Position numbers and translations under genes: made by a program
Notes under the pieces: model-generated
The model's input: the letters and a program-made list of their open reading frames with translations, nothing else
What the model was told of the DNA's origin: nothing
The model's database searches: none
Assembly (NCBI GenBank): GCA_963969365.1
Contig: OZ017753.1
Location: 806,001-870,000, forward strand
Direction of reading: 5' to 3'
DNA: 64,000 nucleotides
From: Asterochloris sp. CNOR1
Lineage: Eukaryota; Chlorophyta; Trebouxiophyceae; Trebouxiales; Trebouxiaceae
Shown here: positions 1 through 60,900 of the stretch, piece by piece
How the letters are laid out: every line of letters starts with the position of its first letter
Numbering within the stretch: the first letter of the stretch is position 1

Positions 1-3000
1 CTGCGCTTGCTGAACTTTTGGAGCTGTTCGAGCTTCCAGAGATGCAGCACTTGCTGCTGCTGACCAGTGTTGTGACTAAGGTGAGGTCTCAAGGTGCCCA
101 CTGCCTTGCTGGTACCAGAGGGTAGTGGCTGGGCAAGTGCTGCATGTCGTGCTCAAGCTGCAACGAAAGCCCCTGCTAATGTCGAACTGAGGAAAGTGCA
201 GGTCAGCCAAACAGGCAACATGCGGAAATCTGCCAGGCTGAGGAAGCTGTATGCAGACAGGCGACGTTCCTGCACCCTGTTTGACAACCTGCACTGCAAG
301 TATACAGCCCCAGGGCCTCACAGGTCAGCAGGGGGTTGCTTACCTCTGGTGCAGAGGCTGTCCAACATGTACACCGCTGAGGTGTCGTTCCATCAAGCAG
401 CTGGCTGAATGCCTCCTGGCCTAGGCTGTGCCGCCCTGCAGTTGACTTCTGGCCACCGGCGCATCAGGCGGTGCACTGAGCTGCCTACGTGTGCCTCCAG
501 CCCTTCCAAACTGCAAGCCCGCACTCGTGAGGTGGCACAACCGGCAGATTGCTGACCTGCCTGCATGCCTGCAGCACAGCCCAGGAGACACTGCAGCGGG
601 CAGCAGACTGGTACTACAGCCACCTTGGGGGCCAGGTGCCCATCATCATCCTGGCAGGCAAGTCTGAGCCCCTCAGCTCAGCTGCGCCCAGCCCCGTGAA
701 GCAGGCTCCTCTTCGCATCGCCCCGGCTGGCCCTGATGGAGACGCTGAGCTAGACGCTCTCCTGAATCAAACAGATGGGCTCCTGGACAGCCTGAGGCTT
801 GAGGAGCTTGGCAGACCCACCAGCCCTGCACCAGGCGATGTGCAGGTGGGCATCGTGCAGGCACTTGCCAGGCAGAGCATTTTTCTGCTGGAGCATTGCC
901 TGTAGGCTGTGCCCACCTGCCAGACAAGCACAGCAGCGAAAAGCGTGCATCAACATCTGTCTGCAGAGCAGGCTGGCACTGCAACATGAGCCTGATACCG
1001 TCTTGAGCCCAGAACTGTACCTTCAGTGGTCCCACAGCATGTGCACTTTGTGCCATGTGCATGGCCTGGAGTGAATACGAGGCTCACATCCTCGGGGGCG
1101 ATGCTGCTGCAGGGCGTGACCACTATGGCCCCTGCCCAGTATGTGGCAACCATGCACGGCAGCCAGCCTGCCATCATGGACATGTATGAGTCCCTGACAC
1201 AGGCCAGGCTGGCTGCTGCCCTGGAGTCTGCGTCAGGCAAGCAGGCTGGGCATGGCTCAGCGGCAGCTGCCGCAGACCATGGCTACACGCCGCATCTGGG
1301 GCCAGCTGCTCTGGACGATGCTCTCAACAATGGGCTCGCGATGAAGGTGGGCGGGCATGCTCTGTCACTGGTGGTGATTAAGGCTGGGCGCTCGAGGAGC
1401 ACCAGGTGCTTATGGGCATGCCATTGGCGAAGTGCACGCTCTGTGAGCATCTGGTGCATGTCGGTGGGTCAAGCAACATGCTCGGCAGCCCTATATCAAG
1501 GTGCAGCTCACCAAGCATGGCTGTGCAGGCCAGGCATTGTTGTGCGCCCCTGCAGGGCACCGTGCGCATGGGCAGGCAGGCTGCAGACGAGGCCTATGTG
1601 CAGATGACCGGCCAGGCAGGGCAGGGCATGAGCCGGGTGCTTCTCAAGGGGAAGCACAATGTCAACAGGGCGATGCAGGGTGACATGGTGGCAGGTCCGT
1701 CCATGAGCACTTTAGTCAAAGCTGGCCTCAGGCAGTATCTCCAAGGCCCCAAGCAAAGCCACTGCATGTGACAGCTCATCCATGTTGCCCTGCACCGTGT
1801 TGCCTGCGCCGCCTGTGCCGGACTGTGATGCTTTGTGCACCAAGTCTCATGCAAATGTATCAACCCGCCCCTCTGTGCTCACACTTGCTCTTTCCTGCCA
1901 GCAGTGCGCCTCCTGCCACGCTCCCATTGGACACAGCAGAGCAGCTCGGCAGCAGATGCCAACATCCCTCCATCACAGACAGCTGAGCCGGTCACTGCGG
2001 CTGAGGCAGAGGAGGACATCCTGCTGCCAGATGAAGCCGATCCATCTGGAGCAGATGACAGTGCGCTGCCCACTGGGGAGGTGGTGGGCATCCTGCAGCG
2101 CAGTCAGCGCAACATTGTGGGCACCGTGTCGGAGCAGGACGAGCAGGCGCTGCAGATCAAGGGGCCCTCCTCGCGCTCGGTAAGCCACCTCACATCGGCA
2201 CGCCGACAGGCTGCTGTCACCCCCGCGTAAGACTTGAGCACAGGGCTGCATTTGCAAGAAGAGGGTGCATTGCTGGCCTGCTGTAATGCAGGTCAAGGGT
2301 TCGGCTTTGACCTCTTGAGCTGCTTGGGAGGTTGATGTCTTGCAGTGTTGCCTGGTGGACTGCGCCAAGACGGACTGCTGAAGTGCAGCATCAAGTGCGG
2401 CGTTGATCTGTCAGTCTCAACGAACAAGGTACTGACTGTCAAGGGGCCATCTCTGCTCTCTGTGAGCCGCCTTACACGCACGCTGCTGCATCAGAACTCT
2501 GGGTGCAATGCTTGCGCCACAGCTTGAGCAGCCTGCCTTCAGCAGATTGGTGGTGTGCGGACTCAGCAGGCGCTGATGAGCAACGGCACCTCTCACTTAA
2601 TCAGCCAACTCACACAAACACACTGCTATGCTGCCAAGTAAGGCGTGGACAGCTGCATAGCAGGAGGTCAGTTGGGCCTCCCCTAGACCCACTGCTCTCT
2701 TGCTGTGCAAAACTGCAGCGCAGGCACCTACCTGTACTGCGCCACCATGATCATGTCGTCATGCCTCTCAGCAGCCGCACACTTCCAGAATGCAGCGCAA
2801 CTGGCTGCTGTACCCCATGCAGCTGCCTGCTTGCAAGCAAACTGAAGGCCGCCCTGCAGATCAAGGCGCACTTCTGTTGTCTGCAAGAAGCAGGAGGTGC
2901 ATCAAGACCCTGATCCTGGGGGCGCCTGCCTGCCCATAAGCTACGCTTGCCCGGAGCTGATAGCGGCCCCACATCAACCGAAGTAGTTTCCTGCCCCTGC

Positions 3001-6000: not shown

Positions 6001-8377
6001 CAAGGACGCAGGATGGTATTGCTGTACAGGGTTGCAGGCATGCAGTATTCTAGCAGCCTTCTGTGACATTGCAGGAAGAGTGTGTCAGTTTGACATGTGG
6101 CTGTGGGGTGAGGCGGCTTCAGCCCAGCCCATTGCAGGCCCTTTGTCCTTTAGGGATTCTCATTCCATGTCTAGTTAGTGGTTGCAGGTGGAGGCTCTGT
6201 GCGAGGCTGCAGGCGTGCGGCTGGACATCTCGTCCAACAGGGCCCTCTCTGCTTCCCTGGAGGCTGCCTGCTTGGCAGCCACAGATGCCGCCAGCATCGC
6301 CCTGGTAAAGGCTGTGGCAACACGAGCAATGTCTGAGGCTGAGTACTGCTCCACAGGTGACTGGAATCTGCATGGCACGGAGCCTCCAGATGCACAGGGC
6401 ATGCACTGCAATCTTGCACACATGCCATAGCTGAGCTGAGCGTGCCTCGAGCCGTGCACCTGCACGCCAGTAACTCTGCATCAGGTGCTAGACATGGCAC
6501 AGAACCTCAAGTCACCTGAGCTGAGCATCTTCAAGTGATGGCTTCTACCCTGCGCAGCAGCAGAGAGAGTGCTCTGTCACTGCAGGGGATGCTCGTCCTG
6601 GAGGTGGCGGCTTTAGCCATTTTGGCCTGGCCCTGAGCCACTACACCCACTTCACATCCCCTATCAGGTGGGTCAGGTCTTCACGCTGCAACACGTCACA
6701 TATTCAGTCATCAATACAAGGCAAAAGCAGATGTTGATACACAGCACGGCACTCCCGCTTTAGCCTGTGTCCATCTGACACAAGCCTCACCTCAGCTCAA
6801 TTTTCCTGCCTGAGTCAGCAGGAGTAAGTGAGCAACAGCCCATCAGACTGTTGAGACATTGCATGAAGGCCTGCACACTTGCCAACAGTCAGGCTCAATC
6901 CTGAAGCTTTGAAAGTCTTGACAACCCCCACGAGTATCCCGGTGCTGCAGGCGCTATGCAGATGTGGTGGTCCACAGGCAGCTGCTGCTGGCTCTCCAGC
7001 TGGAGCAGGGCAGGCAGCAGCCCCTCCACAATCAACACCCTCACCAACAGCACCAGCACCAGCAGCAGCTGGTGCCTGCTGATGGGCAGCAGGTCCCCCT
7101 GACAGCGCATGCAGAGGTAGCTGCTGCCGCTGATATGATGAATGAGCGGCACAGGGCATCCAAGCGGGCGCAGAAGGAGTGCTCAGACCTCTACCTCCTG
7201 CTGCTTCTGCATAGGTGAGGGCATACTGAAGCGGTCTGTTGACACATGGAGTAAAAGCGGGCGCACAAAGGCATGTTCAAGATACAAAACTGCATCTGCT
7301 GCTGGTCATGCATAGGCGCTTGTCTGGCAGGAACGCCTTGCGAGAACATGTGGGTGCTGCATGTGCTGGCTGCATGCCTGGACCCTGTGAGATGACCTGC
7401 TGAGTTGAATTTAATGGCTGGAAGTGGTGGCCTGCATGCTTCTGTGTTGTTATCAGGCTGACTCTCAAGCAAGCAGCAACCCCACACAGGCTCTGTGTTC
7501 GCAATGCTGCCGTTTCTACTTCAGGTGGACCAGCAATGTGGAATGGAACAGCAAAGCTGGGCAGTTGGACGAGCGTCATTGCTGTGCTGTGGGCTGCACC
7601 ACCTTTCACACCTTGCTGCGCTGCAGGCAACCCCACATCAAGCCTGCCCTGGTGTATGCCATCCGACCCACCGCACTACTGCTGTTCATCCCGGAATACC
7701 ACATCAAGGGGCTGCTGCACCTTGCTGATCGCGCTGGGCTGGTGCGGCCCCCACGGAGCAGCGATGCTGAGCCAGATGCAAGGGACCCTTATGTTCTCAG
7801 CGAGCGGCGCAAGCTGCGTCTATCAACAGGTGGGACCTTGTGGGTTGCTGCTGCCTGGCTCGCACTCCTGCCCGGCAGGCAGCACATGCTGGCATCGGCC
7901 AGGCCTAGATTTTCAGGTGACTCAAGTGTGACAAGTGGTACCTCTGCCTGATGGGCTGGCTGCTGCTCTGCGCTGCAGTTGTCCTGCACATCCCGCTTCT
8001 GGAAGCATTGCTGGCGACAGATGCTTGCTTGTAAAAAGTTTTACCCTTGAGACTTGCACCTGAGCAGAGTCAGGCTGCGTTACATGCAGATGCCACCTGT
8101 GCGAGGATTCTTAACGAGGAGACAGGCAAGGTGGTCTTTGAGGTGCACGCGATGCAACAGGTCTGGGTGGAGCTGAGCGGGGAGGGGTCGAGGGCACATG
8201 GCCCAGGTACAATAACATTATGAAGAACAAAACCCGTTGGCAAATGCTCTCCAAATAATCTGCAAAGCCAAACGACATGTTTTGCGCAAACAGTTCACAA
8301 AGGTCTACGTCAATTGCAGGGTTGCGCATGACACTGCTCTCTCCTCAGCACCCACAGGTGGTGCGTCTGGCTGCTGA
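1..8377 (+). CDS. DIS3L: DIS3L/RRP44-type exosome 3'-5' exoribonuclease, 5' end outside window
   Basis: This is the processive hydrolytic RNase that works with the RNA exosome. Nineteen exons are visible: <1-80, 202-299, 575-845, 1113-1346, 1556-1694, 1905-2179, 3003-3178, 3552-3733, 3971-4071, 4343-4545, 4949-5108, 5379-5492, 5740-5847, 6188-6356, 6586-6667, 6951-7214, 7627-7829, 8090-8206 and 8320-8377. In order they encode the end of a PIN domain ([16 protein letters not shown]), two cold-shock domains ([10 protein letters not shown], then VPMERRLP and [11 protein letters not shown]), the RNB nuclease and an S1-like tail ([18 protein letters not shown]). The RNB catalytic Asp cluster CTDVDDAV lies at 3973-3993, followed by [17 protein letters not shown] and [10 protein letters not shown], so the exonuclease looks active. 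The PIN part lacks the Asp-rich NDRNDRAIR stretch of DIS3, hence the DIS3L label. Exon 16 carries a Gln/His-rich insert after the conserved YADVVVHR. The stop at 8375-8377 was chosen because splicing to 8320 restores the family ending (RAHGPGLRMTLL). Confidence 0.88.
2432..2890 (+). repeat. Two diverged intronic copies of the preceding DIS3L exon end
   Basis: The exon ending at 2179 finishes with codons for [11 protein letters not shown] and a GTAAGC donor. A recognisable copy lies at about 2432-2475 (VKGPSLLSV followed by GTGAGC). A weaker one lies at about 2851-2890 (ALQIKAHF). Both sit in the intron between 2179 and 3003. They look like tandem duplicates of the exon's 3' end with its splice donor, not new exons, because the DIS3 family has no repeated segment here. 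Confidence 0.6.
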
Positions 8378-8490
8378 GGCATCAGCCAGTGACCGGGGAA
8401 AGCAGGACAGACTTCAGGTGGGGTTGTGTTCTTTGGTGTCTCTTACCCTGTGCTGCCCTCGGGGGCAGCTTGTGAAGGCGCAGCGAGGCC

Positions 8491-8589
8491 TGTGAAGGTC
8501 TTTGCTCTGCTGCTTCCAGTGGGCGTGTGAAGGTCTTTGCTCTGCTGCTTCCAGAGGGCATGTGAAGGTCTTTGCTCTGCTGCTTCCAG
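8491..8589. repeat. Tandem repeat, three units of about 35 bp
   Basis: Units begin at 8491, 8526 and 8561, each opening with TGTGAAGGTCTTTGCTCTGC and continuing TGCTTCCAG. The copies are nearly identical, so the expansion is recent. The third copy diverges after the CCAG. A partial TGTGAAGG also occurs just upstream at 8471. It lies about 115 bp after the DIS3L stop codon. Confidence 0.9.
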
Positions 8590-9697
8590 TGGCACCCTGG
8601 CATGAGTCTATCATGCCCCTGACTTGAGCTCCAGCAGAAGCTCGTACTGGCGACTGCTGGGTGTCATTGCCCGACACTCACCAGCAGCATGTCACACTGA
8701 CAGCATGCCGCCTGAAGAACCACCAAAGGTCACAGCTACACGGCCCTGCAGGCTACAACGAGACAGCTGCAGGAAAGCAGCAGCTGGGGTGCCCGTCTTC
8801 CAGCCAGACTACCTGCTCACCCGACAACCACTTCTGCCCAGAAAACCGTTTCTCAGAACCGCAGTGACGCCATAATGTCTGCTGGCCAGCCACAGCTTGC
8901 CTCATCATGGCAGGCTGCACCCTCTGGATGCATGGCAGACATTCTGGCAGAGAGTCAGCCGCAGCAGTGTGGAGCTCCAGTGGTGGAAGCAGATCGCCCG
9001 GTACTTGATGCTGAGCTGAAGGCAACAGGGCAGCAGGTTGCACTGGTGCATACTGACCAGGCGGGTGACGTGATGGCAAGAGACACTCAGGACTCGCTGA
9101 CAGTGAGAGCACTATACATGCAAGCATCGATTTATCTGCTCAGAGCTTCCATGACCAACCCAGGCAACCCTAGCAAGTCAGCCAAATGCAGAGCAGTTGC
9201 AGCAGCCCTTGAACATCAAGCTTCAGATGTGTCTGCGTGACATCTACAATGGTGCAAGCCATCAGAAAACATTTGTTGCTGGACGTGTTGCAACACGTGT
9301 ATGAAACGTTTAGCTTCTCCACAAGGCTAAATCACACCTGATGAGCCAATATCAGCAGACTCTTCGATGATTATCATGTATGTGCACGTGCTGAGCTTTC
9401 ACTGCTTGTACTCTCAAAGCATTGCTGTGCCACTGCTGGTATGGTTGATGCTGCCACAGCCTCCTGGAGCAGCTGCCACATGTGGTCAGTGCTGCCAGGG
9501 AGGCTGGTGCAGCTCGGCCGCAGCCTGTCCAATGCCTGCACATACCTCACACAGATGTTCATGCCTGCTGTGGCTGCCTGAGAGTTGCTGTATGTCTCGA
9601 CGTCACTCAGACATAGCAGCTGCCAGCACAGCGAACCCTCTGCCTTCGTCCCTGACACCCAAGCTGCATGGCCCCAATGGTCAATGGTGCTTCTGTG

Positions 9698-9715: not shown

Positions 9716-9822
9716 GTTTCCTGTCGAGCGTTGAGCTCAGTCTGCATGCGCCCCTTTCCATCAGGCCACATGATCGATCTGTTTGGGGCCTAGTGGCCAC
9801 TTGCAAGGCACTCCGGATCAGC

Positions 9823-12800
9823 ATGTCCTGGGGTGAGTGGCTGCAGCATGCAACTAGCAGTCCTGCCAAAGAGCGCCATACTGCATAACTCAGACTTAGG
9901 GCTGCGTGCAGGAGGATTTGGCCAGAGCAGTACTCCAGCTTTTGGTCAGGCTACGCCAGCGTCCCCATTTGGGGCTCCTGCTGCCAATCCCTTTGGTCAG
10001 GTGAGGCTGCTCTGCTGCCATGCATCTTCCTCTCAGAGTGTCCATGCTGGTCTTAGGAAGTCACAATGCTGCTGTCCTTATCTAAGCTTGCTGTGCTGCG
10101 TCTTCAGAGCACACCTGCCTTCGGGCAGCCATCCAGTAGTGCAGCATTTGGCGGAGCCGCGGTGAGCAGGTTGCACCCTGACTGCAACTCAGACCTCACG
10201 CAATTCAAAGCAATAACTGTGCTACACATGATGCAGGCATTTGGGCAGCCAAGGAGCCAGGCAGCTTTTGGAAGCGGTGCGTTCGGGGTGAGCTTCCTGC
10301 ACTGAGTAGCTTCTCAAGATTTGCTGTCATGCACTGCAGGGCTGACAGTGGCTCTCTTAGCACTGCAGGCATCCCCTGGCGGCAACACCTTTGGTGGTGG
10401 CTTTGGAGGCAGCCCAGCCTTTGGCCAGACTGGGGTAGGTTTCCTGTGGCATAGATGATGTATGTCAGGCAAAACCTCCAGGACCCCGCCTTGGGGGGGT
10501 GCAGCCAAGACTTTGCAGGATCACTGTGCCCTCCGACATGTTTGTTGCATTAGCCCTGCGCAGGTCTTCACTCAATCTGATGCACCATGCCGGCAGCTCG
10601 CTGTATGGCACACCACTGCCAACATGCAACCAATCCTTCCTGGCCGCAGTCTGCATTTGGAGCCCCCACCTCAACGCCTGCATTTGGAGTGCCCGCCTCC
10701 ACTCCAATGTTTGGGGCGCAGTCGACCCCAGCCTTTGGGGCTCCGACCTCTGGCGGCTTTGGTGGGGGCTTTGGAGCGTCCAGTGCGCCCTTTGGCACCC
10801 CCGGCAGCACGCCCGCCTTTGGCACACCCACAGGCGGCTTTGGCGCCCCAGCGGCTGGGGCCTTTGGGGCGCCAGCAAGCTCAGGGTTTGGCAGTCCCAG
10901 CGGAGGTGAGCATCCAAATGCCACAAGCCCCTGGCCCTGGGCGCAATGGATGTGCGCTGAGCTGCTATTGCTGTCAATACATGCATGGCTATTCCTGCTA
11001 AGGCAGCCTGCAGAGCCTCTTGGCTGTGCTGGACGCTGCCATCATCAGATGCTGCCTGCCAGCCCTTGCTTGCCACAGCCTGCATGTGGCTGTGCTGCAT
11101 TTGTGAGTCACCCAGCACTTCCATGCCAGGCCTTGCCTGCCGCATCTGTGCAGCCGCCTGTGTTTCAGGCCATCTGCAATGCATGACAGGTCCCCCCCAC
11201 CGTGATGTCCTGCAGGGCTGTTTGGCCAGCAGCAGCAGCAGCCGCAGGCGACGGGCACGCGGACTTTGCCATACCAGACAACCAGCCTCACAGACGCTAG
11301 CAAGCCTACTGAGCGGCAGAACTTCAAAACGATCTGTGCCATGCCGCAGTACAGCTCCAAGTCGGTGGAGGAGCTGCGCTGGGAGGACTATCAGGTGAAA
11401 AGAGGGCGAAACCTAGGGCTTGGGGTTGATCTGGCCACGGTCATGGCTGCATCAGCTGTGCTAGGATGACCACAAGGGGAGGGGCCTGTCTGTGCACGGC
11501 AGTGGTCCAGACCGGTGGCAGTCACCTCCGGTCAGCATTAGCGGCATTGGGAGGAGTCAAGCAGGCAGGATCCTGCAGGGTGTGAGCTGGGTGCGGCTGT
11601 GAGCAGGATAATGTGCAAAGTCACAGGGAGGGGCTGTCATGTCAAGGGCAGATGCCAGTGCTGAAACGCTGTCGAGTTTGCTGACTGCCAACGTGTCCAC
11701 TTGCTCCACACCCCACTCCACCCTTCTGGCATGTGTTGTTCAATGGTTGATGACGCCTTTGCAATCACTTTCCACAACGAGCAACAATGGCTTCACTTTG
11801 GCAGTGCTTCACTGCCGTGCACATCATATCGGTACCCAGACCCTCTCTCCTACTTACGAGGCAGCGCCAGTGGCTGTTTCATCTTGCAGCCTGCTCCTGC
11901 CCCAGCACCGAAGGCGCACATCAAATGACCCACATGCTGTGCAGGCAGGTGTGAAGGGTGGCCAGGGTGCAGTCGGGGGAACCCCCACTGGCTTCGGTCA
12001 GCCAGCAGGGGCAGGCCTGTTTGGGCAGCCACAGGGCCAGCAGGCGTCCCCATTTGGCACCCCGACGCTGGCCTTTGGGCAGCAGGCCACCCCTGCATTT
12101 GCACAGCCCTCGTCCGCGGCCTTCAGCTTTGGGGGCACCCTGGCATCCCCGTTTGGGCAGAGCAGCCCCGCAGCCTTTGGACAGCAGTCCACCCCCGCTT
12201 TTGGACAGGTGCGCCCCTGTTGCTTCTAGCCGCGCGCATCATGCCCATGTGAACTTGACCACAGCGTCTTTTGATCCAGCATACGCATGATAGCCTTGTC
12301 CAGCAAACAGCTCAGCATCAGTAACAATGGGCTTGCTCACCCATCCATGTCAATAGAGCTTTCTGACAGGCAACTGCTGACCCATGTCTCTCTCTCAAAG
12401 CAGGGCAGCTCACCCTTTGGGCAGAGCTCCTCTGCCTTCAGCTTTGGCGCGTCTAGCACCCCCAGCTTCAGCTTTGGAGGTGCCAGCGCCGCCAGCCCCT
12501 TTGGTGGCCCTGCCTCCAGTGCGGCCTTTAGCAGCTCCGGCTTTGGCGCCTTTGGGCAGAGCCAGGCTGCCCCGGCTTTTGGACAGCAGGTGCAACAAGG
12601 CTGCCTTTGCTCCTCAAACCCTTGCTATTGCCTGTAAAATGACTGTCATCTCGCATTGTGCTGCTTTAGGGCCATGATGCTTGCTTCGTCAGGGCTGCCA
12701 GTCAGCTTTGTCAACCTCTCGTACCTGTCTGAGCAGGGCTTGATCGCACCCGTTGACCTTGTTCTGGCCGCTTGCCTGCAGGCAAGCAGCAGCGCCTTCA

Positions 12801-15800
12801 GCTTTGGGGGTGCCAGCACGCCCACCTTCGGCCAGAGCAGTGGGGGCATGTTTGGCCAGGCCTCCGCGCCCTCCATGTTTGGCACCCCTGCCAGCAGCAG
12901 CGCCTTTAGCTTTGGTGGCCTGGGGCAGAGCTCAGCTGCTTTTGGCAGTGCGACCCCCTCTGCCTTTGGGGCCAGTCCAGGAGCCTTCTCCTTTGGGCAG
13001 ACACCGGCCTCTAAGCCACCAACTTTCAGCTTTGGGGGCGCCTCGTCCCCTTCGCCATTTGGTGGGGCCAGCAGCGGCACTTTCACCCTGGGAACTCCAT
13101 CCAGCACATCGCTGTTTGGGCAGGCCTCAACCCCGGCATTTGGCACTGGCGGTTCGCCATTTGGTGCCAGCAGCGCGGCCTTCTCCTTTGGTGGCCAATC
13201 CCAGGCGGCGCAGAGCGGGGGCATGTTCACCTTCAGTTCCTTTGGGACGCCGCAGCAGCAGCAGCCGCAGGGGCAGCAGCAGGGGGCGCAGCAGCTGTCC
13301 ATTCTGCCGCTGGGTAAGAGTCATTGCACCCAGCGTAAGCCGTCCTGCCTTGCTTGTTTAGCCAGGCCAGTAGCAGTTTCTGTCGCGTCCCTGCACGGGT
13401 GTGTCTTCTGTGCTTTGCAATCATGTCTGCAACCGCCCCAGGCCCTGACGCAGTTACTCAAGCACCAACTGAGGGTTCACAAGCGCATTGATTGGCGCAT
13501 TAGATGATGGAGCAACCACTTGCCATCTGTCGACATCTGGCAGGGCATTCCTGGGCAAATGTCATGCCACTGGCTCCCTTTTGGAGCATTGTCCTTGCAT
13601 TGATGCCCATCTCCAGCTAGAATGCACAGCTGTTTGCAACTCATCATTAGTCCCATTATGTTGAGCAGCCTCTCAACTGAAGGGTGCTTGTAGCGGGGCA
13701 GGGCCAGCTGATGCTTGATGTGTGGCTGATCTGTTGGTCTGCTGTGGTGCCAGGAGCCCAAAGATGCTGCACAATTCATAATCTGCTGCCCAATCGGCCA
13801 AAGCATGTCACAGGAGGTTGCTGTTTTTGCACGGAAGCCCAAAAGCTCCTGTTCCCGCATCTGCCCTTGGAAGTACAGCCTCTGCAGGTCTCTCCACAAG
13901 CCCATATGGGCAGATGCCGCCGCCCCCCAACATTGGAGTTGAAAGTAGGCCGCCCTCAGCCATGGTACTACCAGCCAGCTACAACAGGCTAAGCAGCTCA
14001 GGCAGCCTGCGTAGCGTGCCGCGCGCCATCACGCCGCGTGTGGGAATGACCATCCCCAGGAGGGCAGCCTCCGGCCTCAGGCAAGAACCCATGGCAAGCT
14101 GATGTGCTCAGGTGTCCTGTTTGCCCGTCGCTTTGGCTGCTATGCTCTGGCATGTCCAACTCCCATGCGGGCAGCCTTTGTTCTCAGGTGGGTAAATGCT
14201 GTGACTGGCAGCTGACTGCACTGGCATCACCACACCCAGGACGGCAGCCCCCTTCCTCGCTTCCAATTTCCAGCGGGGTCCCTGGCACCAACAGAGTGCG
14301 TCCGTGTTGACAGAGCTGATCTTTCCTCAGCTGGCTGCTTGCCCGTGGTGACTCAGCATTGACACTCCCTGGAAGCAGCCTCAACCCTTGGGGTGAAGTG
14401 CTTGATGCCAGTTTGTCTAGCTGCTGCGCTCACAAAGACCAGATGGCTCGTTCTGCCGTCTCCAGGGCTACTCTGCCACCCGCTTTGGGCTGCAGGCTCA
14501 AGTGAACATGGCAGTAGGGTTACCACCTGCTGATGGTTGCCGCCAGGCCTGCAAGTGCTTGCAATCAGAGTTGCCTGGCGTGTTTGAAGTTTCTGTATGA
14601 CAAAGTGAGCCGAGATTGCTGGAGTGGGTCATGTCCCCTGCAGAGCACTTGTTCAGTAGGCCTGCATCCTCCATCAGCTATTATGGGTTGTCCATCATTC
14701 TTTATGGCGTGCTGGCGCTGCAGGCATACTGTGTCAGCTAGCCTGTCACAGGTGGCACGCCAGAACTGTCATTGAGATGGCTGCAGGACCTGACTGACTC
14801 GCTCACGGCTGCCCTGCAGGAATGCTGCATCAGCCAGCCTGGCTGACTCTGAGCTGGGTGCTGAGCCTGAGAGGCTTGCCAGCACACTGTTTGTGCCAGT
14901 CAGCAATCCGCGCAGGCTGTTCAGTCGCGAGCAGCTGCCCTCGGCAGACGCAACTCCCGGGCCCAGCAGGGGCCAGCAGTCTGCTGGGAATGCGCAGCAG
15001 CATCCGGAGGGTGATGCAGGCAGAGGGCAGCAGCCACCAGAGAATGGGAATGCTGATGGCCACGGGCAGTCTGAGGGGGCCCATCGTGAGGCGTCGCCGA
15101 ACTTCGTAGGGGAGCGGGAGGCTCGTGAGGGGCATGGCGAAAGGCAAGCAGCGCAGCAGAGCCGGTGAGCTGCTGTTCAGCGTGTCCCTTGCTTCAGGAG
15201 GCTTAGTCCGGGTGCCTCTCATTTCTGGGCACTTCTTGGTTGCTTTGTATGGCAGCAGGCAGATGATCCTGAAATTGAGACTTGCTAGATTTGCTCCCAG
15301 TGTCTGCCCATTCTTGGCTGCTTTGAGCTGCAGCAGGCGGTTGTCCAAGCAGCCCAAAGTCGCTGGGCTGAGCCCAATTCTTGTGCAGTCTCTGCTGGTA
15401 AGGCAGCATGCGGCCAACTTGCCCAGCAGGGAATGTATGCTGCAAGTGATGTGCCCCCTGCATGAGCCGCCACCTCTGCATGAGCCACCAGGTGATACAT
15501 GAACGTGTCACTGCAGGCGCAATGGCAGGGAGGAGGCCCAGGAGAACCAGCCTGAGGATGCTGGCGGGGATGGGGACCAAGGCAAGAGCGCAGAGGATCC
15601 CTTCAAGGAGGTGGGCTCTCATGGGGCCATTGTCAGCCTGCAGGAGATTTCTTCCAGGGGTGCTGAGGACATGTCCTGGAAGCGAGGCACAGCCTATGTG
15701 TCTCTGCCCTTTGACAGCTTGAAAGGAAGCTGGGCAGCCACTGTTGGGGATAGGAACAAGGGCAAGAATGTTACGAGCAGCTGGGCTGACACAGTCCTGC

Positions 15801-45371: not shown

Positions 45372-48300
45372 TCACTGTCTGCGCTGCAAGGCAGTGGCGT
45401 GGGCCTCCTGTATCGCAGGGGCTAGGTGCTGCCTGACATCGTTTACATGCTCCACTGCCAGCAGGATGGGCATTATGTCAAGCAGCTCTTGGTCCTCCAA
45501 GTCGTCTATGAATGTGCCAATAGGAACCGCATTCTCGGGCTGGAAGACGTACGAGTGCGGGGAGTTGTCCACGATGATGGTGTGGGCCAGGTCTCTGCCC
45601 AAGCACAGCAGGTCCTTCACATAGTTGCCCTCGTAAGGGCAGCAGGAGTCCCTGCAGGGATGCAGGCTGCAGGTGTCAGGCAGGGAAGCCTGGGATCAGG
45701 CACCTGCGTCAGCTGTGAGGTGCTGCCCCTTACATCCATGCCGAAGGGCAGCAGAGTTCCCACAGGCATCAGAGTTCAAGGCACCGTACCTCACATGCAT
45801 ATACACAAGTGCTGCCAACGCAACAGGCCCGGTGGCAAGCAGCAAGCGTCTACGCAGCGCAGCAGACTGCATGCATTGCCCCCAAAGCCAAGTGCTGTGA
45901 TCACCTTAGTTACCCCAGATGGCCACGCGTCTTCAGCGAAGCACCATACACCCCAGCGGTCACAACACCTCACCCTCCCACCCTTCCCCTGGTCTACGTA
46001 GCTCTAAGCCTGAGGAGGCGCAACCAGGTCAAGTTCTAACCCGAAGGGATCAGCATTCTGCAGAGGCATGCATGCACCTGCCCAACCCCATTGGCAGTGG
46101 GACCTGACCTGAAAAGGCGCCACCGAACCACGTTGCTCTTGTCAAGCAGGTCCAGGAGGGGGTCTGCATACTTGCTCAGGCTGGCTGTGAAGACAACCAC
46201 TTCAAACTTGGGCCCAATGTGCTGCATGAAGTGGTCCATGTGCGGCCGCTTCAGCACGTACACATCCACTACCTGCAGGCAGCATCCAATGGTGTGATGC
46301 GCAGCTACCCTTGGGAAGTGCTGTGTCGCTTGCAGTGGGGGTGCTTGAGGACGCCAGATCACAACCTGCAAGCAGCAACAGATGACACTAGCTTCTGTGC
46401 ATTTTGCATGAAGATGACTGCGCTTTGGTGCCGCATGCAGGCTGTGCTGCTGTGCGCGCAGAGTCCAGTGGCTATGTCTGGCAGAAGGCAAGCTCCTGTT
46501 GCTACACGGGGCCTCTGTCCAAATGACTGCAGTCACTCATTCTGATTGATGGTGAGAAAGCCTGCTGCAGGGTGGCTCGCTGCAGGCAGTATCAGCAAGC
46601 TGCAGCAGCTCTGGCCCACATTTACTGCATTTGAATGGCGCTGAACCCCGTGGTGGACTGATTTCCACCTTCATCTGCACTGATGCTAAGGCGCGCCCCT
46701 GCCCATCAACTTTTGGACTGTAGTGAACTGCAGTCCAAGGCGGAGTGGCCCCTTGGCCCCACCTGGCACCAGGATGCAGCGTCAGATCGGTTTCAGCAGC
46801 ACCAACCTTGCCCTCAATCTCGACCGGGATGATGAAGTCAGGGTTGGGCACTGGCTTGAAGGAGGAGTGCACCAGGGTTTCGTCCAGGTCCAGGACCAGG
46901 CACTGCTTGCGCCGGTGTGCCGCGTCCTGGGGGCCCAGCAGGCCTTCCCCTGCAACATGAGCAGCCAGCTAACAGCTTGAAGGGATCCTCAGCGCTACTG
47001 CCGACAGCCATCTGCGCCCTGAGTGCCGGAAAGCTGATGATCTTCAGCATCAGAGTGGAAGGCTAGTTGGGGAGCAGCTAAAGGGCTGCCTATGCACTGG
47101 CTGCGTGTCCTGACGACAGGTCCCCTCTGCACTATGCTGCCCCTGTGAGGCCTCACCTGGCTAGTGAGGCGGCGTGTGCAGCTGCAGTGGGCGAGTGACC
47201 ACCGCACCCTGCGTAGCAACCAACGCTGCCAAAACGGCAGACAAAGATTCTGCACTCCCTGAGGAGCCTTCACAGAAAGTCCCGAGAAAAACTTCAATGC
47301 CTCAAACTTGCTTGCAGCACAGCAAATCTAGGTTTGCAGGTCTGACATAAGGGCCTGGCTGCTGCTGCAGAGGCCATCTCAGCTGACTGCCTGCTGGTCG
47401 TCTCTTGCCTTAAATGCTGGCACCACATGGGACACCACAGCTGCCCTGGCCAAAGCAATCTACGGAGCCCTCGCCTGTGCGTTCACCCAGGCCCTCACCT
47501 GTGCATTCACCCAGGCCCTCACCTGTGCGTCCACCCAGGTCTCACCTGTACCACGCAGCAGCATGCATGGCAGCAAGGGGCAGATGACCACTGCTTATGC
47601 TAAGCAGCAAGTGCTGCCAACATAGCAGGCAGAGCTTGATGCACATCCTGACGAGGACAATGGACAGAGGAGTCCATGACTTGACATTGCTCAGCGGGCT
47701 GTACCGCAATGATGTGGGTCAAGATGCCTGCTGGCCAGGGTCAGCCCAGCATTCAGATTCTTTGGCAACTGCCTCACCTGTGTAACGCGGCGGCGTGGGC
47801 GGCTGCAGAGGACGGATGACGACTGCCTCGGTCTCACTGCTGCGGAAGTACTGGTCATTGCTGGGCGGGGCCAGGCAGCACAGCAGGGAGCGCAGCTTTG
47901 CGCGCCAGGTGGTGCGGCTCTCATTGACCACGGGCCCGCCAGGGTCGGTGGCCCCTCGTTCCCCCTCTGTGGCTGGCGGGTAGGGGAGGTTGCGGTTGGC
48001 CCCCGGGAGCTGCAGACACACAGAGGCCAGGCTTGGCGGGACAGCAGGCGTTGTGTGCTGCAGGCATCTGCAGGCGGGCATGTGCTCAGTCCACAGCTTT
48101 GGGGACTGGGTCGCCAATGACCTCTGAGAGCTGCAGGCACAGAGAGAGCAGGCTTGAGGTGACAGCAGGCACCCTTGAGATGCCAGGGGGTGACAGAACA
48201 GTCAGCCAGCTGCATGCAGGTGTCTGCTCAATCGTCATGTGTGGCTGGCAGGTAGAGGAGGTTGCTGTCAGCCTCTGCATTCTGCAGGAGGCAACAGAAG

Positions 48301-50738: not shown

Positions 50739-53718
50739 CTACCCACTCAACATGCTGCCGTCAGGATCCAGAGTGGTCAGGTGAGACTGGGCGGCCGACA
50801 CTGACTGGTGTGAGCCGTCCAGGAAAAGCGCCAGCTTATAGTCTGGCAGTGCGACGTCCACTCCAACAAGACCGTCCTCAACTGCCACCTGCACATGACA
50901 ATTGACACAGCTGGCAGATTCAGGTAGGCTGGCAGTGCAAGATGATCACACCAGCGAACCATCCTCCACCTGCCTGTGACAGCAAACTAGCACTTTTAGC
51001 TCGCAATTGAGGCAACGTCCACTGCAACCAGACCCTCGTCCACTGCCATCTGCAAAGGCAACGGAGGCATTTTGCATGTTCATTCCCTTGTTTGCAGCCA
51101 GGCTGGAGCTGTTGAGTCTGAAGTGGATGAAGCTGCTGCTAGGCACAGTGCTAAGTGTGCCCTGTCGCTACTCACCTGCAGCTGCACTCCACTCTGACAT
51201 GGTCCTTGCGGGACTGCCACTTTACTGCATTGCTTGTGGTGATTCACCCATAGCAGCATGGTCTGTGTGCAAATGCTTGCGGAACAGCACATCTCTGCTC
51301 GTGTCAGATGAGCACTAGCTTCCAACACAGCATGGGCAGCATTCACTACTGCCTCACCCAGCAGGCAATGCACTGCCTTGGCTTGTGCTCACCTGTAACT
51401 GATGCTCAACCCCCAACATGGTGAGTGTTCTGCTGATGTCCGTGAGCTGGCGCTTGTAGTCATTCTGCCGCGCCTGCTTCTCAGCAATCTCATTCTGCAG
51501 GCATTTGATAGCATTCAGTCCCAATGCAGTGTCCTTGTGCAACTGTGCAAGGCCTGATGCGCCATAGTTTGCAGCTGTTGTCGCCACCCCTGCAGAGACC
51601 AAGCGCCCCCAAGCAACAACGTCTCACACGTCTTGAATCAAGTCAGCATGTAGGACAGCTGCCTGGGCTACAGATCTTACACAGCAACAATGCAGTAACC
51701 AGATGCACAATCAGATTCGGCTACAAGTGCCCCACCCACCTTGAACTTGATCAGCATGTAGGGGTCTTCAGTCAGCTGCCTGGCCCGCTCCAGGTCTGCT
51801 GGCCTCAGGTCGTGGAAGTAATGGCGGTAGGCTGGCGTGTTGAGCTGGGAATGCACCTTGTTCAGGGTCCTGAGGATGGTCAGCTCCACAATGAAGGGGC
51901 CATCAAAACCTGGCTGGCTTGCACTCTCCAGGTAGGCCTGCAGGCAGCAGGCCCGCTACTGCGTGCAGCGCAGTGCTTGCCATGCAGCCTCTGGTCCGTG
52001 CTCATGCTGCAAGGCCACTCACGGCCACACACTGGGCTGCACTGAGCACAGCAGGAGCCAGCCAATGCAGCACAGCTGCAGGCCCTGCCCAAGCAATTTC
52101 TAGTCTGACCAGGCGGCAAATTGATCTGCTGGGCGTCCTGCAACACAGGCAGGTGCAGCCCTTCACTAGGCAGCGTGATCAGAGGAGCAGCCCTCGCCTG
52201 CTGTACCTTCTGCAGCACTGCCTGGGGATGCATCCGTTGTAGAGGATCCTGCAGCATTGGCCCAGGCAACTCATGGGGCAATCAACTACCCAAATCTCAC
52301 CTGTTGGGCCTTCTGTAGCACTGCCGCAGGCAGCTGTAGCAGCTTCTGCTGGACCTCCTGCTGCAGCGCACTTCGAGCACTGCTGACCTTCTCCCCTGGC
52401 GCTGCTGATGCACCCTCTGCAATCTGTATTAAGTCGGCGAACATGCCAGCCTGGTAGACGTGAATCAGAGTCACCTGCAACAGCAGAGTGGGAGCTGTGC
52501 TGGCACAGAGCACGGTGATCGTGGCATGTCTTGGCTTGTTGGACCGCTGAACAAGGTGTAGTAGCAGATTGTAGGGCAGATCAAGTGCTGTTGTCTTTGC
52601 GAGGCTGCCCCCAGCCAGTATGGCAAATGACCAGCATGGACATTCTAGAGCTATTAGCTGAGGGGTGGTCAGGCACAGCACGTCTCAGCACACTTGACAC
52701 AGCTGCAAGGCATGGTTCCACCTGCAGGGGCTGCAGACCTCGTCTAGCTGTTTCAGCGGCGTCTGAGCTACCACGTGCAGCAGGGAGGTCCACAGCTCAG
52801 GGGTCAGCTCATGCAGCACTGCCAGTCCCCACAGCAGCATGGCGGCATCCTGCGAGTTGAGGGGTTGACGCCCCACACTGGCTGCTTGTGCAAGCTCTGC
52901 CCAGATCTACAGCAACATGTTCGACCTGTCGTGTAGGTGTCACTCAGGCCCTTGTGGCTGTGGCTCAAGGTGCAGGGCTGAGCTCAGAATGCTGCACAGA
53001 ACACAAAAAGCAGACCAGCAAGATGCACTTGCCTGGTTCACAGCAACCGCCATGAGCTGCCTGCTAGGTGCATAGCCAAGCCTGGCAACACCCCAGACCA
53101 GCACACACAGCTCCCATGGAGCCAGCCTTTCTATGTTGTCAGACAGCTGTTGTGCAGCTGCATCCATTTCTGACGTGCTTGGCAGCACGCTGTGCCCAAA
53201 AGAAAGGGCAAAGAAGGGCAGGCTGAGTGCCAGCACAACAGCAACCTGCAGACAGGCTGGCATGTCAGCGTCTGCTGGTATGAGGCAGCAAGCTTTGCCT
53301 TCAGCCAGCCACAGGTGAAAAGTTTACCTGTGGCTCCCGCCGTAGCTCATCACTGAAGTGTTTTTGTGTTGCAGACTGGGATTCTGGGCGTGCATGCTGG
53401 CCCAAAAGGTGCCTTGGGTCAATGTGCTCCCGCACCCAGCTCCATGGGGTTCGTTGTTGTGTGCCAGACTCCTCACAATGAGCTGGAGACAGCACTGCTG
53501 CCACAGCACCTCCTGCTGCACCCAGCCAGGGCGCCCAGCCAGGGCCACTGCAGCCAGGGCCACTGCAGTTCTGTGCATGCGAGGTGTGGCTCACTTGATG
53601 CTGCACCCCTGAAAGACCCCTTGATTGTCTCCAGAAGAGGTTCCAGCAGATCCAGGGCAGCTTTGATGCCATTCCACACCGACATGAAAGATGGTTGACC
53701 TCCTCCAGTTGAACGCAT
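50739..53718 (-). CDS. OPR/FASTK-like RAP-domain protein, organelle RNA factor
   Basis: Proteins of this type are imported into chloroplasts or mitochondria and control single transcripts; they are numerous in green algae. Two helical-repeat exons show the hallmark W-A/G-L pattern: LAPWELCVLVWGVARLGYAP (about 53130-53040) and SQDAAMLLWGLAVLHELTPEL (about 52865-52735). Next come VTLIHVYQAGMFADL with LLQLPAAVLQKAQQ (about 52480-52303), a long exon of unknown role (about 51940-51732; TPAYRHYFHDLRPADLERAR) and a pre-RAP exon (about 51493-51392; LTDISRTLTMLGVEHQLQ). The RAP-like C-terminus (50891-50739) has EDGLVGVDVALPDYKLALFL and ends with TAG. The RAP segment is short; its usual second half is missing or on an unseen exon. 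Coding-like sequence upstream to 53718 (VWNGIKAALDLLEPLLETI) is probably the 5' part, but the start is unknown. Confidence 0.65.
50936..51052 (-). repeat. Two decayed copies of the RAP-domain exon
   Basis: The exon used (from 50891 after GTGCAG) starts VAVEDGLVGVDVALPD. Upstream on the minus strand, a copy at about 51052-51001 reads MAVDEGLVAVDVASIAS then stop, preceded by TTTGCAG. Another at about 50972-50930 reads VEDGSLV then stop, preceded by CAG. All three follow an AG in phase 0, so each could be spliced to the exon ending at 51392, but only the last encodes the domain. Confidence 0.75.
52205..52324 (-). repeat. Duplicated exon segment in the RAP gene
   Basis: On the minus strand the exon end reads AVLQKAQQ and then a GTGAGA donor (about 52324-52302). 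A near copy about 100 bp downstream (about 52222-52195) reads AVLQKVQQARAA with no donor. The second copy extends an open frame to about 52110. Confidence 0.6.
53536..53568. repeat. 15-bp tandem repeat
   Basis: Two exact copies of cagccagggccactg (53536-53550 and 53551-53565) are followed by CAG. The unit is a multiple of three and sits in the presumed 5' coding part of the RAP gene, so it would change the protein by five residues per unit. Confidence 0.85.
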
Positions 53719-53964
53719 GAGACACGCAGCAGAAGACCTGTCTGCGATTGCGCATTAACCTGATATGCTTCAGAATGCCCAGCTTCTTTCATAAACAGAA
53801 TGCCCAGTGCATTTGCATGCTCATGTTGGTGACCTGGCCTTGCCTTGCTCACCTGAGGTATTCATGCAGCGCTTATGTATGAAATGATTACCTTGCAAGC
53901 TGTTTATTCAGACAAGCATAGCTGCTGAACTGGCAGGCTCTTTGCCATGTCATGGGCAGGCACA

Positions 53965-57966: not shown

Positions 57967-60900
57967 ATGGACTGGCTCAAGGAGCAGCTTGGCCTCAGGA
58001 CTCCCTACCCATCTGGGCAGCCCCGTTCCGTCAGGATAAATGCAGGCGACCCGCACAAGCTGTTCAAGGGCAACTATGTGTCCACCACCAAGTACAATGT
58101 GGTCACATATCTGCCGAAGGCACTCTTCGAGCAGTTCAGGTGATTTACAGATGCAGCACAGGTGCTCTGTGCAGCTTGCATGCCTCCTGTGAGTTTGCTG
58201 CTGCTGGTTGATGTCATGTCTGCCTCTGCTTATGTCAGGCCAAGCTGCTGCTGCTGCAGGCGTGTGGCAAATGTTTACTTTGCCATCGTCGCGGGCCTCT
58301 CATGCCTCAGCATCAGTCCCGTCTCGTGAGTAGCCCTGCCCACGCAGGCTTCATCTGAGCTCAGGCCCGTTTCCTATGTGCAGCTCTGGCTCATGTGCTG
58401 CGTCTTCTGCTCACTGCCGCCGCTCTCCACACATCCTTGGCTTCTTGATGCTGTGCCCTATTGAGCTGCTGTGTCTCATGTTGACTATGGGGATGCTGTG
58501 CGTTCACACAGCTAAGCCATGGCAGCCTGCAGCATTTCATGCTGACTGCTGCCTGTGCTGCGAACTCACGCATGGTGCTGTCACAGCTGGGCGTGTCTGC
58601 AGGCCTGCCACCACCTTTGCCCCCCTGGGCTTGGTGCTGGGCGTCTCCATGATCAAGGAGGCTCTGGAAGATGTCAAGCGATGGCTGGCAGACAGGCGGG
58701 TCATGGCATGTCGGCTCTGCCAGCTCTAGCTGTTCCTGCGCTTCTGCTGTTGTCAAGTCATGGCTGGCAGACGGGCGAGTGCAGCTTGATCAGGGATTCT
58801 GTGTCCCCTGGGTTTTCTGCGCGACCGTTGTGCCGCCTGCAGCCTGCATTCTTGACCGTGCTGCTCCGCTGCTTGGCCGGGTACCTCTGGCAGCCTAGGA
58901 CCTGAGGCTGCAGCCGCTCTTGAGTCCTGTCAAGCAGGGCAGGTACCAGTGTGCAGCCATTGCAGCAGGTCTCCTGCTTCCTGGGCTCTGCCAGGCCTGT
59001 TTGCTGCCGTCTGGCCCCCATGCGGCCAGCAATGGCTTATCTGGCCTGCTGCACGATGCCTTCTCTGCCCACCACAATCCTCACCGTGCAGGGAGGTGAA
59101 TGCAAGGCCGGTGCTGGTGTACAGCCCATCTGCCCAGAAGTTTGTCAGCAAGGCCTGGAAGGAGCTCAAGGTGCGCTGCTGTAAACTGTATTCTGCTGAC
59201 CTGAGCTGCCACAGTACAACTCTCTGGGAGCCCCTCAAAAGCCAGATGGTGGCTGCAGCACCTGATGCCTGTTGGCATCTCGCATGGCCTTTAGCAGAGC
59301 TGGTTGGGTGGCCAGCCAGACCATTGCTGCTGCACGCAGGACCTGTTTGCATTCTGCAACTTTTAAGCAGGCAGGGGCCAGATAGCCGGCTGTTGGTGTG
59401 CAGGTGGGAGAGATCATCCAGGTGGACAAGGACAGCTTCTTTCCAGCTGACTTGCTGCTGCTGTCGGTACCAGAGAGCCCTGAGGGCATCTGCTATGTGG
59501 AGACCATCAACCTGGATGGGGAGAGCAACCTCAAAATCAAAAAGGGCTTGGAGCAGACCAAGGAGCTGGATCAGCTGCTAGGAACATTCACGGTGAGGTT
59601 GCAGTGGAGGCTTTGCGCCCTGTGCCAGCAAGACACTGACAGGTGTTGGAGAGCCTGTCACGCAGACCGCTTGCACTGCTGAGCTGGATTGGCAGCAGCT
59701 CCCAGTGGGCATGCTCGTCCCCCTCATTATGCGTAAGCAGATTGTCAACCAGGCTGTGCACTGTGCAGGCAGAGCTTCAGTGCGAGCAACCCAATGCCTC
59801 GCTGTACACCTTCACAGGCAACCTGCTGTTGACACCGCCCCTCACGGAGGCAGCGCAGACGGTGCCTCTGTCGCCAGCCTCCATCTTGCTGCGGGGATCC
59901 AGCCTCAGGAATACCAAGCGTGTTTTGGGCGTGGTTGTCTTTGCAGGACATGAGACCAAGGCAAGCTCCTGCTCTGTGTCAATCACATCCCCCAGTCTGC
60001 CGTGCATCTTGTGTCTCAAGGGGCTGCAGCAGCCTGGACTCTGCCTTGAGTGGTGTCAAGTTGCTGCTAACCTAACCCCAGACATTTTGCGTCCCAGTCC
60101 CATCTGGCTGCTTTCCATAAGGCGGCAATGCAGGCACACCCTGGCCCACCCTATGTTGACCTAGAAACCCTCACTGCTGCCGTGTCGCTGCTGCAGTCAA
60201 CGCACAACTGCTGGCATCCGTTGAGATAGGTACAGGGGCCTGACAGCGCAGCACAGCATTTTGGGAGCACACCACAGCCTTTTGTTTGGTATGGTGGTGC
60301 TGACCGCACAGCTGTTGGCTTCCTGCAGGAAGCCTTGACCTGGTGTTGCCTCTGGAGTACAACAGCAAACCATGGCAATCTGACAGCGCAGCACAGCAAC
60401 CTGCTTGTTGTGATGGGTGCAGGTGATGATGAATGCCACGCTGCCACCCAGCAAGCGCTCCCGCGTGGAGCGCGAGATGGACATCCTCATTCTCTTCATG
60501 TTTGCACTGCTGCTGGCCATGTGCATCATCGGCGCTGCCTTCTTCGCTGCCTGGACACACTCGCGGTCACCCAACATGTGGTGGGTGGCACCTCTGCGGG
60601 TGTGATGCAGCATGCCCTGCAGCAATAACGCTGTTTGAGCTGCGGCTGGCCATGTCTTGGTAGCCAAGTTTGCTGAATCGCGCCAATGCAGGTAGCAAGC
60701 TGCCTCTTCCTGCAGCTCTATTTCTCATTAGCACTGCTGCTGGTCATGTGCAGCATCAGCACAGCCTTCTTCTTTGCTGTCTGGACATGCTCCCAGTCGC
60801 CCAGCATGCGGTCGGCAGCTCTGTCTGCAGCTGCCTGCCAAACAGCCCAGCCAACACCATGACACTGCAGGCTGGGCTCCTCAATGAATTTTCATGTGAT

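Follow-up and report, generated by a model that had tools for sequence, protein, structure and literature searches.

Many introns of Asterochloris sp. CNOR1 hold, on the same strand, a degraded copy of the closest edge of a neighbouring exon, a pattern best explained by introns growing as short tandem duplications that cross the exon-intron border bring exon pieces into them. The analysed sample represents 304 kb of the 56.4-Mb genome and reaches beyond the window (the whole 64-kb stretch of DNA introduced above), with bin counts taken from 264 kb. Exons are the predictions of a gene finder trained on the same sequence. Excerpts of PMC6652019 describe the Asterochloris genome as 56 Mb in size, with 56-62% GC across 98% of its length and 9 introns per gene.

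The initial annotation had reported copies of adjacent exon pieces in the introns of six genes, and each of these genes indeed carries at least one: DIS3L (two, both weak), NUP98-96 (several), MRS2 (two), the SCP phosphatase (one to three), the RAP gene (two) and the P4-ATPase (three). The range given for the SCP phosphatase reflects exon 47778-48009, which may belong to another gene. Pfam hits on the gene models include a DIS3L-type RNB domain, the Nup98 autopeptidase with Nup96, an MRS2-like family, the NIF phosphatase and a P4-ATPase. Ten raw reading frames scanned first against Pfam matched nothing, and the partial RAP gene model matched no Pfam family, so that its label rests on the initial annotation. 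Within the window, 21 of the 112 exons examined are copied in non-exon sequence at most 450 bp away with a score of at least 36, whereas 0.8 were expected. A separate listing at this score comprises 25 non-exon copies. The copies, together with two of the source exons, are as follows (identical/aligned positions; spacing in bp).

1905..2179, plus strand: DIS3L-like exon, 3' edge and donor copied downstream (gene model; Pfam RNB/OB_Dis3 of the spliced protein)
2420..2476, plus strand: decayed donor-edge copy of exon 1905-2179 (40/57 identical, spacing 281)
7243..7316, plus strand: weak donor-edge copy of exon 6951-7214 (48/74, 8 gap columns, spacing 93)
10117..10176, plus strand: weak copy of the short NUP98 exon 10237-10287 (44/66, spacing 120), in the FG-repeat region and possibly a coding repeat
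14043..14081, plus strand: weak partial copy of exon 14112-14187 (30/40, spacing 106)
14715..14745, plus strand: weak acceptor-edge copy of exon 14820-15164 (25/31, spacing 96)
16696..16742, plus strand: copy of the beginning of exon 17140-17384 of NUP98-96 (35/47, spacing 442)
17430..17478, plus strand: copy from close to the end of exon 17140-17384 of NUP98-96 (39/49, spacing 101)
18789..18860, plus strand: acceptor-edge copy of exon 19028-19267 (50/72, spacing 224)
19937..19975, plus strand: acceptor-edge copy of exon 20095-20298, TGCAG retained (32/39, spacing 152)
20730..20755, plus strand: acceptor-edge copy of exon 20876-20974 (22/26, spacing 140)
21187..21224, plus strand: partial copy of exon 21295-21510 (30/38, spacing 143)
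22514..22603, plus strand: acceptor-edge copy of exon 22754-22954 (63/91, spacing 225)
24409..24478, plus strand: donor-edge copy of exon 24000-24184 (54/71, spacing 292)
25895..25954, plus strand: copy from close to the end of exon 25730-25839 of Nup96 (49/60, spacing 121)
27189..27223, plus strand: acceptor-edge copy of exon 27256-27488 (30/35, spacing 62)
32655..32711, plus strand: copy near the start (base 16 on) of MRS2-like exon 32792-32945 (42/57, spacing 152; Pfam MRS2-like)
33805..33858, plus strand: acceptor-edge copy of exon 33998-34265 (37/54, spacing 186)
46335..46377, minus strand: acceptor-edge copy of SCP/NIF phosphatase exon 46109-46272 (34/45, spacing 93; Pfam NIF)
47541..47594, minus strand: donor-edge copy of exon 47778-48009 (39/54, spacing 232)
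48219..48287, minus strand: acceptor-edge copy of exon 47778-48009, lying in sequence labelled a gap of more than 1000 bp and possibly intergenic (49/69, spacing 272)
51012..51054, minus strand: acceptor-edge copy of exon 50752-50888 of the RAP gene of the initial annotation (36/43, spacing 161)
52296..52325, minus strand: copy of the second half of the short exon 52198-52248 (25/30, spacing 103)
58751..58780, plus strand: donor-edge copy of P4-ATPase exon 58603-58695 (26/30, spacing 79)
60423..60599, plus strand: P4-ATPase exon to which the solved P4-ATPase 6k7g aligns a single time and in order
60728..60833, plus strand: best of the three P4-ATPase copies, derived from the final 99 bp of exon 60423-60599 (81/106 identical, spacing 227)
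62389..62420, plus strand: copy from near the end of P4-ATPase exon 62125-62300 (28/32, spacing 127)

Independently of any annotation, the 304 kb contain 114 direct self-matches at spacings of 20-449 bp, versus 3 and 4 at two far spacings used as background. With a score of at least 14 in 264 kb, direct pairs number 39, 38, 19 and 13 in the four 100-bp bins from 20 to 419; the three bins after these hold 3, 0 and 2, and seven far bins 3, 0, 2, 2, 0, 0 and 0. Inverted pairs stay at background (0-2 per bin across nine bins, no excess). A 4th-order Markov simulation, sampled at every fifth spacing, yielded 3 pairs (scaling to about 15), versus the 114 real ones. This excess of short-range, direct and not inverted similarity, found in 20 of the 23 sampled sequences, is as expected of local tandem duplication, already proposed as the source of the copies and supported here. 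The claimed spacing of about 70-150 bp (some copies farther) corresponds to the lower half of the range, as the median is 147.5 bp with quartiles of 96-231. Thirteen of the 114 pairs are exon-exon; exon-intron pairs are moderately more numerous than by random placement (54 vs 42.5), so no exon-specific targeting is needed.

Around 534 predicted exons, 75 copies were found in non-exon flanks, versus 7.2 in the control made of flanks of exons from other loci and 11 in antisense. The similarity between exons and introns claimed in the initial annotation thus exceeds control pairing beyond the window too, and the spread of alike copies to unrelated loci, as by introners, is not observed in these other-locus flanks. 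The copies are limited in distance: with predicted exons masked and a score of at least 34, 52 of 315 exons have one in the first 450 bp, against 6, 9, 15 and 6 in the four shells that follow, where 5.0 are expected, and at a score of at least 38 these values become 40 exons, then 5, 2, 3 and 0 (1.8 expected). As had been noticed, copies occur on either side of the exon (34 upstream, 41 downstream) and in genes of both orientations (45 and 30). The acceptor edge is reached by 27 of the 34 upstream copies and the donor edge by 32 of the 41 downstream ones, whereas the far splice edge is reached by only two in each group (near versus far, Fisher 3e-13). Modelled random local copying expects 29% at the near edge, 24% at the far edge and 57% at neither, and such non-tandem copying was rejected because its edge geometry is wrong. 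In contrast, simulated border-spanning tandem duplications touch the near edge in 83-90% and the far edge in 2-4% of cases. Copies touching the near edge and rarely the far one therefore look like border-spanning duplications whose intron-side copy is skipped.

The whole pattern is probably explained, as far as sequence can tell, by such duplications. In this model the genome often acquires short tandem duplications, most of them under about 450 bp. Wherever such a unit straddles the junction of an exon with an intron, splicing could bypass the exon-edge copy on the intron side, and the protein would stay unchanged thanks to the copy still attached to the body of the exon. Acceptor edges would be left behind in the upstream intron by units spanning an acceptor, and donor edges in the downstream intron by units spanning a donor. 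The skipped copy, no longer coding, would decay, the intron remaining longer by the length of the unit. The duplications themselves may be made by staggered-break repair, by analogy with excerpts of PMC8355091, in which Cas9-nickase breaks with 43-50 bp overhangs in cultured cells give small direct duplications; direct duplication of small segments is common to both, with spacings up to about 450 bp here.

A tandem unit should also contain a piece of intron. The complete unit is visible at L006:1751 (72 bp, 100% identity) and at L005 exon 5713-5922, where a 95-bp unit can be traced across intron and exon, and such young units, with at least 85% identity along their full length, amount to four in 304 kb, taking the best per sequence and spacing. 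Ungapped flank identity first hinted at non-tandem copies; gapped anchored extension and the reading of single cases then found intron homology in some. Homology of the intron part is detected for 16 of 48 edge copies at p<0.1 (17 of 55 at p<=0.1 in a companion count), whereas one-clock simulations roughly matched to the observed mismatches and gaps predict it in 66-79%. Identity drops from 0.73 at positions -5 to -1 of the copied acceptor to 0.345 at -10 to -6, and from 0.70-0.79 over the last 15 exon bases before the copied donor to 0.338 at +5 to +9; just beyond the splice motif it is about 0.34, compared with 0.50-0.64 in simulations. Most of the misfit disappears when simulated intron sequence decays at twice the rate. 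Simulations with a single clock approach the observed fade too if divergence is fixed at a high value or indels are numerous, but the indel-rich setting yields 1.8-2.0 gaps per copy, about twice the real 0.88. Harsher decay settings thus reproduce the fade, at rates to which nothing independent points. Where the exon part alone is visible, the unit was presumably tandem as well.

This fade could also be read as non-tandem copying over short stretches, anchored at splice motifs. Template switching or an RNA-templated step, starting or stopping at TGCAG or CAG-GT, would copy 30-60 bp of exon edge to a nearby place and leave out the adjoining intron. Similarity stopping near the splice motif and the 32 of 48 edge copies devoid of clear intron-part homology speak for this route. 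However, antisense copies are near control level, some cases are plainly entire tandem units, and faster intron decay in simulation looks similar. A spliced-RNA template was rejected: downstream copies do not continue into the next exon (mean score 13.8 vs 14.3 in control, n=28), nor are upstream copies preceded by the previous exon (13.2 vs 14.1, n=22). Splice-anchored copying is therefore regarded as unlikely. A similarly low probability is given to copying steered by the splice motifs themselves, which would yield about half of the copies as 30-60 bp exon edges bounded by TGCAG or CAG-GT without the adjoining intron, or to selection that keeps the exon-derived part in the intron, for instance as a splicing decoy or helper; either would account for similarity ending so near the splice site and for the copied acceptor AG still present in 13 of 20 cases. 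The copied donor GT (or, once, GC) is retained in 8 of 27, below the 0.57 of the simplest neutral estimate (p 0.0055). As a simulation with intron sequence decaying twice as fast gives a retention of 0.32, selective killing of copied donors is not claimed.

Some copies might be genuine exons that the gene finder overlooked, either protein repeats or members of mutually exclusive sets, and true coding repeats do exist among the pairs, namely the NUP98 FG repeats and tandem exons in L016. For the intronic copies in general this is very improbable. Their spacing from the exon is even modulo 3 (remainders 0, 1 and 2 in 20, 26 and 29 cases, p 0.43), whereas 12 of the 13 exon-exon spacings are multiples of three, so that judging from their sequences the copies look untranslated. 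Of 60 gaps inside copied exon parts, 53 break the frame, in line with the drift of spare copies that had been suggested. The P4-ATPase aligns with solved relatives without an extra segment, and since exon 60423-60599 is matched once and in order by 6k7g, the copy at 60728..60833 falls outside the aligned protein. Tandem duplication of whole exons would involve both edges, and the far edge is found in just 4 of 75 copies. As most copies have one splice edge only, they are not ready-made alternative exons, and the steady supply of such exons once envisaged finds little support.

An assembly artefact, by haplotype joins or collapsed repeats, is highly improbable, as joined alleles would be near-identical, whereas the ungapped cores of the 114 pairs range from 75 to 100% identity with just 30 at 95% or more. 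Chance similarity from CAG-rich composition and a very strong splice consensus (CTGCAG/G and CAG/GTGAG) does produce weak matches (18.9 per 453 exons at a score of at least 34), but as the main cause it is refuted, being next to impossible given that other-locus flanks yield a tenth of the observed copies, antisense is at control and far spacings are almost empty.

A recognisable copy occurs in 65 of 565 predicted introns. Non-exon sequence totals 216 kb, and the spacings of the 114 pairs (13 exon-exon ones included) add up to 19.8 kb. The proposal that duplication feeds introns thus holds in that some length is added. Introns with a copy have a median length of 485, versus 251.5 without; this is not decisive, because a 95% range of 322-451 or 350-542, depending on the weighting, is already expected from size bias. 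The creation of introns by duplication of an AGGT-containing segment was not borne out. An in-register match of donor and acceptor surroundings was sought in 481 introns and later in 561, and intron birth by this route was found in neither set: for thresholds of 6 to 12, observed/expected numbers among the 561 were 45/38.9, 19/14.5, 7/5.5, 2/2.3, 1/0.8, 1/0.4 and 0/0.2. The best candidate, L013:5280-5357 (78 bp), is ambiguous and may be a duplicated acceptor with an exon starting with GT.

Duplication of segments within genes is frequent across eukaryotes, and what is distinctive here is that the edge copies are partial and apparently skipped. In the intron gain of Rogers (1989), as told in excerpts of PMC4974935, an AGGT-containing exon segment is tandemly duplicated, and excerpts of PMC2891723 list five probable Drosophila cases. 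Local tandem duplication would likewise put exon-derived sequence within introns here, but the in-register match expected from that model, with a spacing equal to the intron length, was looked for and not found. In the potato RdRp gene (Ma, Lan and Niu 2016, PMC4974935, in the same excerpts), a tandem duplication across the intron-exon border takes the 3' splice site along as well. That duplication gave a new intron in a single gene, whereas in Asterochloris sp. CNOR1 many genes seem to have had an existing intron lengthened, and no new introns were recognised. In fly regulatory DNA, distance-limited similarity between neighbouring segments, as excerpted from PMC3188502, stems from old local duplications of up to about 50 bp, compared with mostly 60-450 bp at exon borders here. 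A literature search covering largely titles, abstract openings and excerpts returned no alga with exon-edge copies, and the word "tandem" does not occur in the main text of PMC6652019.

The origin of intron sequence and length is an old question for which few events are directly visible. With exon-edge fossils in roughly one in nine predicted introns, comparing this genome with one relative would be enough to measure how fast borders are duplicated, introns lengthen and decoy splice sites decay. These introns also represent a natural collection of duplicated splice sites, in which the choice of the correct site could be studied.

Short, direct, distance-limited duplication characterises the genome of Asterochloris sp. 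CNOR1 and extends beyond the window (contig 8, 806001-870000, of a genome of 56,383,464 bases in 21 contigs). To the window were added 20 stretches spread over 15 contigs, each 10 kb long, and four more in two neighbouring pairs on contigs 9 and 3, for 304 kb in all; early tests were made on 264 kb. When ungapped direct self-matches were binned by spacing under a low-complexity filter, independently of any annotation, the 264 kb held 39, 38, 19, and 13 pairs scoring at least 14 in four 100-bp bins spanning 20-419, then 3, 0, and 2 in three bins beyond 419; seven far bins held 3, 0, 2, 2, 0, 0, and 0. Inverted matches showed no excess, with 0-2 per bin over nine bins. Across the 304 kb, with neighbours merged, 114 direct pairs were found at 20-449 vs. 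3 at 2000-2429 and 4 at 4000-4429, and a fourth-order Markov sequence gave about 15 (scaled up from 3 counted at every fifth spacing). The near-spacing excess of direct matches, together with the flat inverted counts, thus points to a property of the genome beyond the window alone. The 114 pairs have a median spacing of 147.5 bp and an ungapped-core identity of 75-100%, reaching at least 95% in 30 of them.

Gene models were obtained with a small hidden-Markov gene finder, self-trained on the sequence from a seed set of exons identified in the window. It learned the donor CAG|GTGAG and the acceptor CTGCAG|G and predicted 528 exons in 264 kb, with a median intron of 268 bp. Under this self-trained model the acceptor is very strong, the TGCAG positions standing at 90-100% across predicted introns of the whole sample. 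Six of the seven spliced window proteins searched matched families (RNB, Nup98 autopeptidase with Nup96, MRS2-like, NIF phosphatase, prolyl oligopeptidase, and P4-ATPase), and the seventh, a partial model of the RAP gene, had no family match. The P4-ATPase is collinear with a solved flippase across its introns in protein alignment. As the finder often fuses adjacent genes, some of its "introns" are intergenic, and those above 1000 bp were kept separate in class counts. On these models, 54 of the 114 pairs join an exon or border to an intron, 29 are intra-intron, 13 exon-exon, and 18 other. Had these pairs fallen at random, the first three classes would be expected to hold 42.5, 40.7, and 8.9. 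Exon-intron pairs are frequent yet only moderately above random placement, so that targeting of exons by the duplication is not required.

The initial annotation had described introns as holding decayed copies of adjacent exons, and this similarity clearly exceeds that of randomly paired loci. Exons with 15 bp of flank were aligned, with gaps, against 450 bp on each side. With neighbouring exons included, 110 of 453 exons scored at least 34 (18.9 for other-locus flanks, 19 antisense) and 60 at least 44 (0.7 and 0). Once predicted exons had been masked, 34 was reached inside 450 bp by 52 of 315 exons, and the four shells beyond held 6, 9, 15, and 6 against an expectation of 5.0; for a score of at least 38, the counts were 40, then 5, 2, 3, and 0 against 1.8. 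The window alone gave 21 of 112 exons at 36 or more vs. 0.8 expected. Querying with the exon only, which removes any help from splice motifs, 534 exons yielded 75 non-exon copies in 65 exons, vs. 7.2 for the mean of ten other-locus controls and 11 antisense, and 20 of 23 sequences carried at least one copy.

The main evidence for duplication of a unit crossing the exon-intron border is the geometry of these copies. Of the 34 upstream copies, 27 have their start no more than 12 bp from the acceptor edge of the exon, 2 extend to the donor edge, and 5 touch neither; of the 41 downstream copies, 32 have their end no more than 12 bp from the donor edge, 2 extend to the acceptor edge, and 8 touch neither (Fisher 3e-13). 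At the observed spacings, random copying of pieces of the observed lengths would have 29% touching the near edge, 24% the far edge, and 57% neither, whereas simulated border-spanning tandem duplication gives 83-90% at the near edge and 2-4% at the far edge.

Some units are still legible as a whole. A 72-bp tandem unit at position 1751 of sample stretch L006 is 100% identical, a fully tandem young case. At window 8487-8592, near the end of the DIS3L-like gene, a 35-bp unit is present three times (94% match) with TTCCAG in each, a young tandem expansion. At the exon 5713-5922 of stretch L005, a 95-bp unit is legible on both sides of the acceptor, the copied CTGCAG now reading CTGCAA. In the remaining copies the intron half is weak: anchored gapped extension detects it in 16 of 48 (p<0.1) and local alignment in 17 of 55 (p<=0.1). 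Among copied acceptors identity falls to 0.345 over positions -10 to -6, and among copied donors to 0.338 over +5 to +9, whereas simulations with one decay rate for both parts give 0.50-0.64 and an intron half detected in 66-79%. The simulated copies carry a mismatch of 0.13-0.27 and 1.0-2.3 gaps each, the real ones 0.209 and 0.88. Doubling intron decay brings the simulated identity to 0.37-0.40 and detection to 25%. Earlier single-rate runs, with divergence fixed, upstream copies only, and settings described by K and indel level, came near the data when harsh; examples are an identity of 0.39 with 57% detection for K 0.35 and few indels, and 0.31 with 44% for K 0.25 and many. Thus either introns decay faster than the exon-derived sequence embedded in them, or mismatch understates the age of the copies, or some never had an intron half.

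AG is retained in 13 of 20 copied acceptors, whereas 8 of 27 copied donors still have their dinucleotide (Fisher 0.02). Simulated retention spans 0.21-0.69 with age and rate, and therefore neither figure proves selection; the gap merits a larger sample. At window 58696, the P4-ATPase gene has an apparent GC-AG intron (CAG|GCGGGT), and GC is likewise retained where that edge is copied in the intron. At 47467-47549, a 24-bp unit repeated 3.5 times carries CTCACC (GGTGAG on the opposite strand), a repeated donor-like motif.

From their sequence, the copies look non-coding. Gaps within the copied exon parts break the frame in 53 of 60. Counted along the codons of the real exon, mismatch rises from 0.190 at the first position to 0.228 at the second and 0.260 at the third, a weak excess that would be expected with one partner alone still under constraint. 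Exon-to-flank spacing modulo 3 splits evenly (20, 26, 29), whereas exon-exon spacing is a multiple of three in 12 of 13 pairs; duplications retained in protein are thus frame-filtered and those left in introns are not. In a repetitive gene of stretch L016 (6198-6990), a tandem duplication of about 390-400 bp includes whole exons, both predicted coding, with ungapped pieces 85-91% identical or better. In stretch L007, a 45-bp predicted exon (5294-5338) resembles the first 55 bp of the exon that follows it, 5507-5698 (54/70 including flanks), possibly a spare edge used as an exon.

Creation of introns by tandem duplication, a known route also named initially, did not find similar support: in-register likeness of donor and acceptor was not clearly above random pairs in 561 introns, so duplication-born introns are not visible in this sample. 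In stretch L013 (5230-5560), a short predicted exon ends in sequence that matches, in register, the beginning of the following exon on the other side of a 78-bp intron; this is either a duplication-born intron, which would be rare, or a duplicated acceptor. Introns holding a copy have a median length of 485 vs. 251.5 without; size bias alone gives copy-bearing introns a 95% range for this median of 322-451, or 350-542 under full weighting.

Internal gene duplication is a known phenomenon, reportedly treated by Gao and Lynch in 2009. Small tandem duplication (PMC8355091) and intron gain through tandem duplication (PMC4974935, PMC2891723) are already described. The present sample of this genome contributes a measurable, dense record of border-spanning duplications taken up by introns, and the distinction of border duplication absorbed into introns from intron birth.
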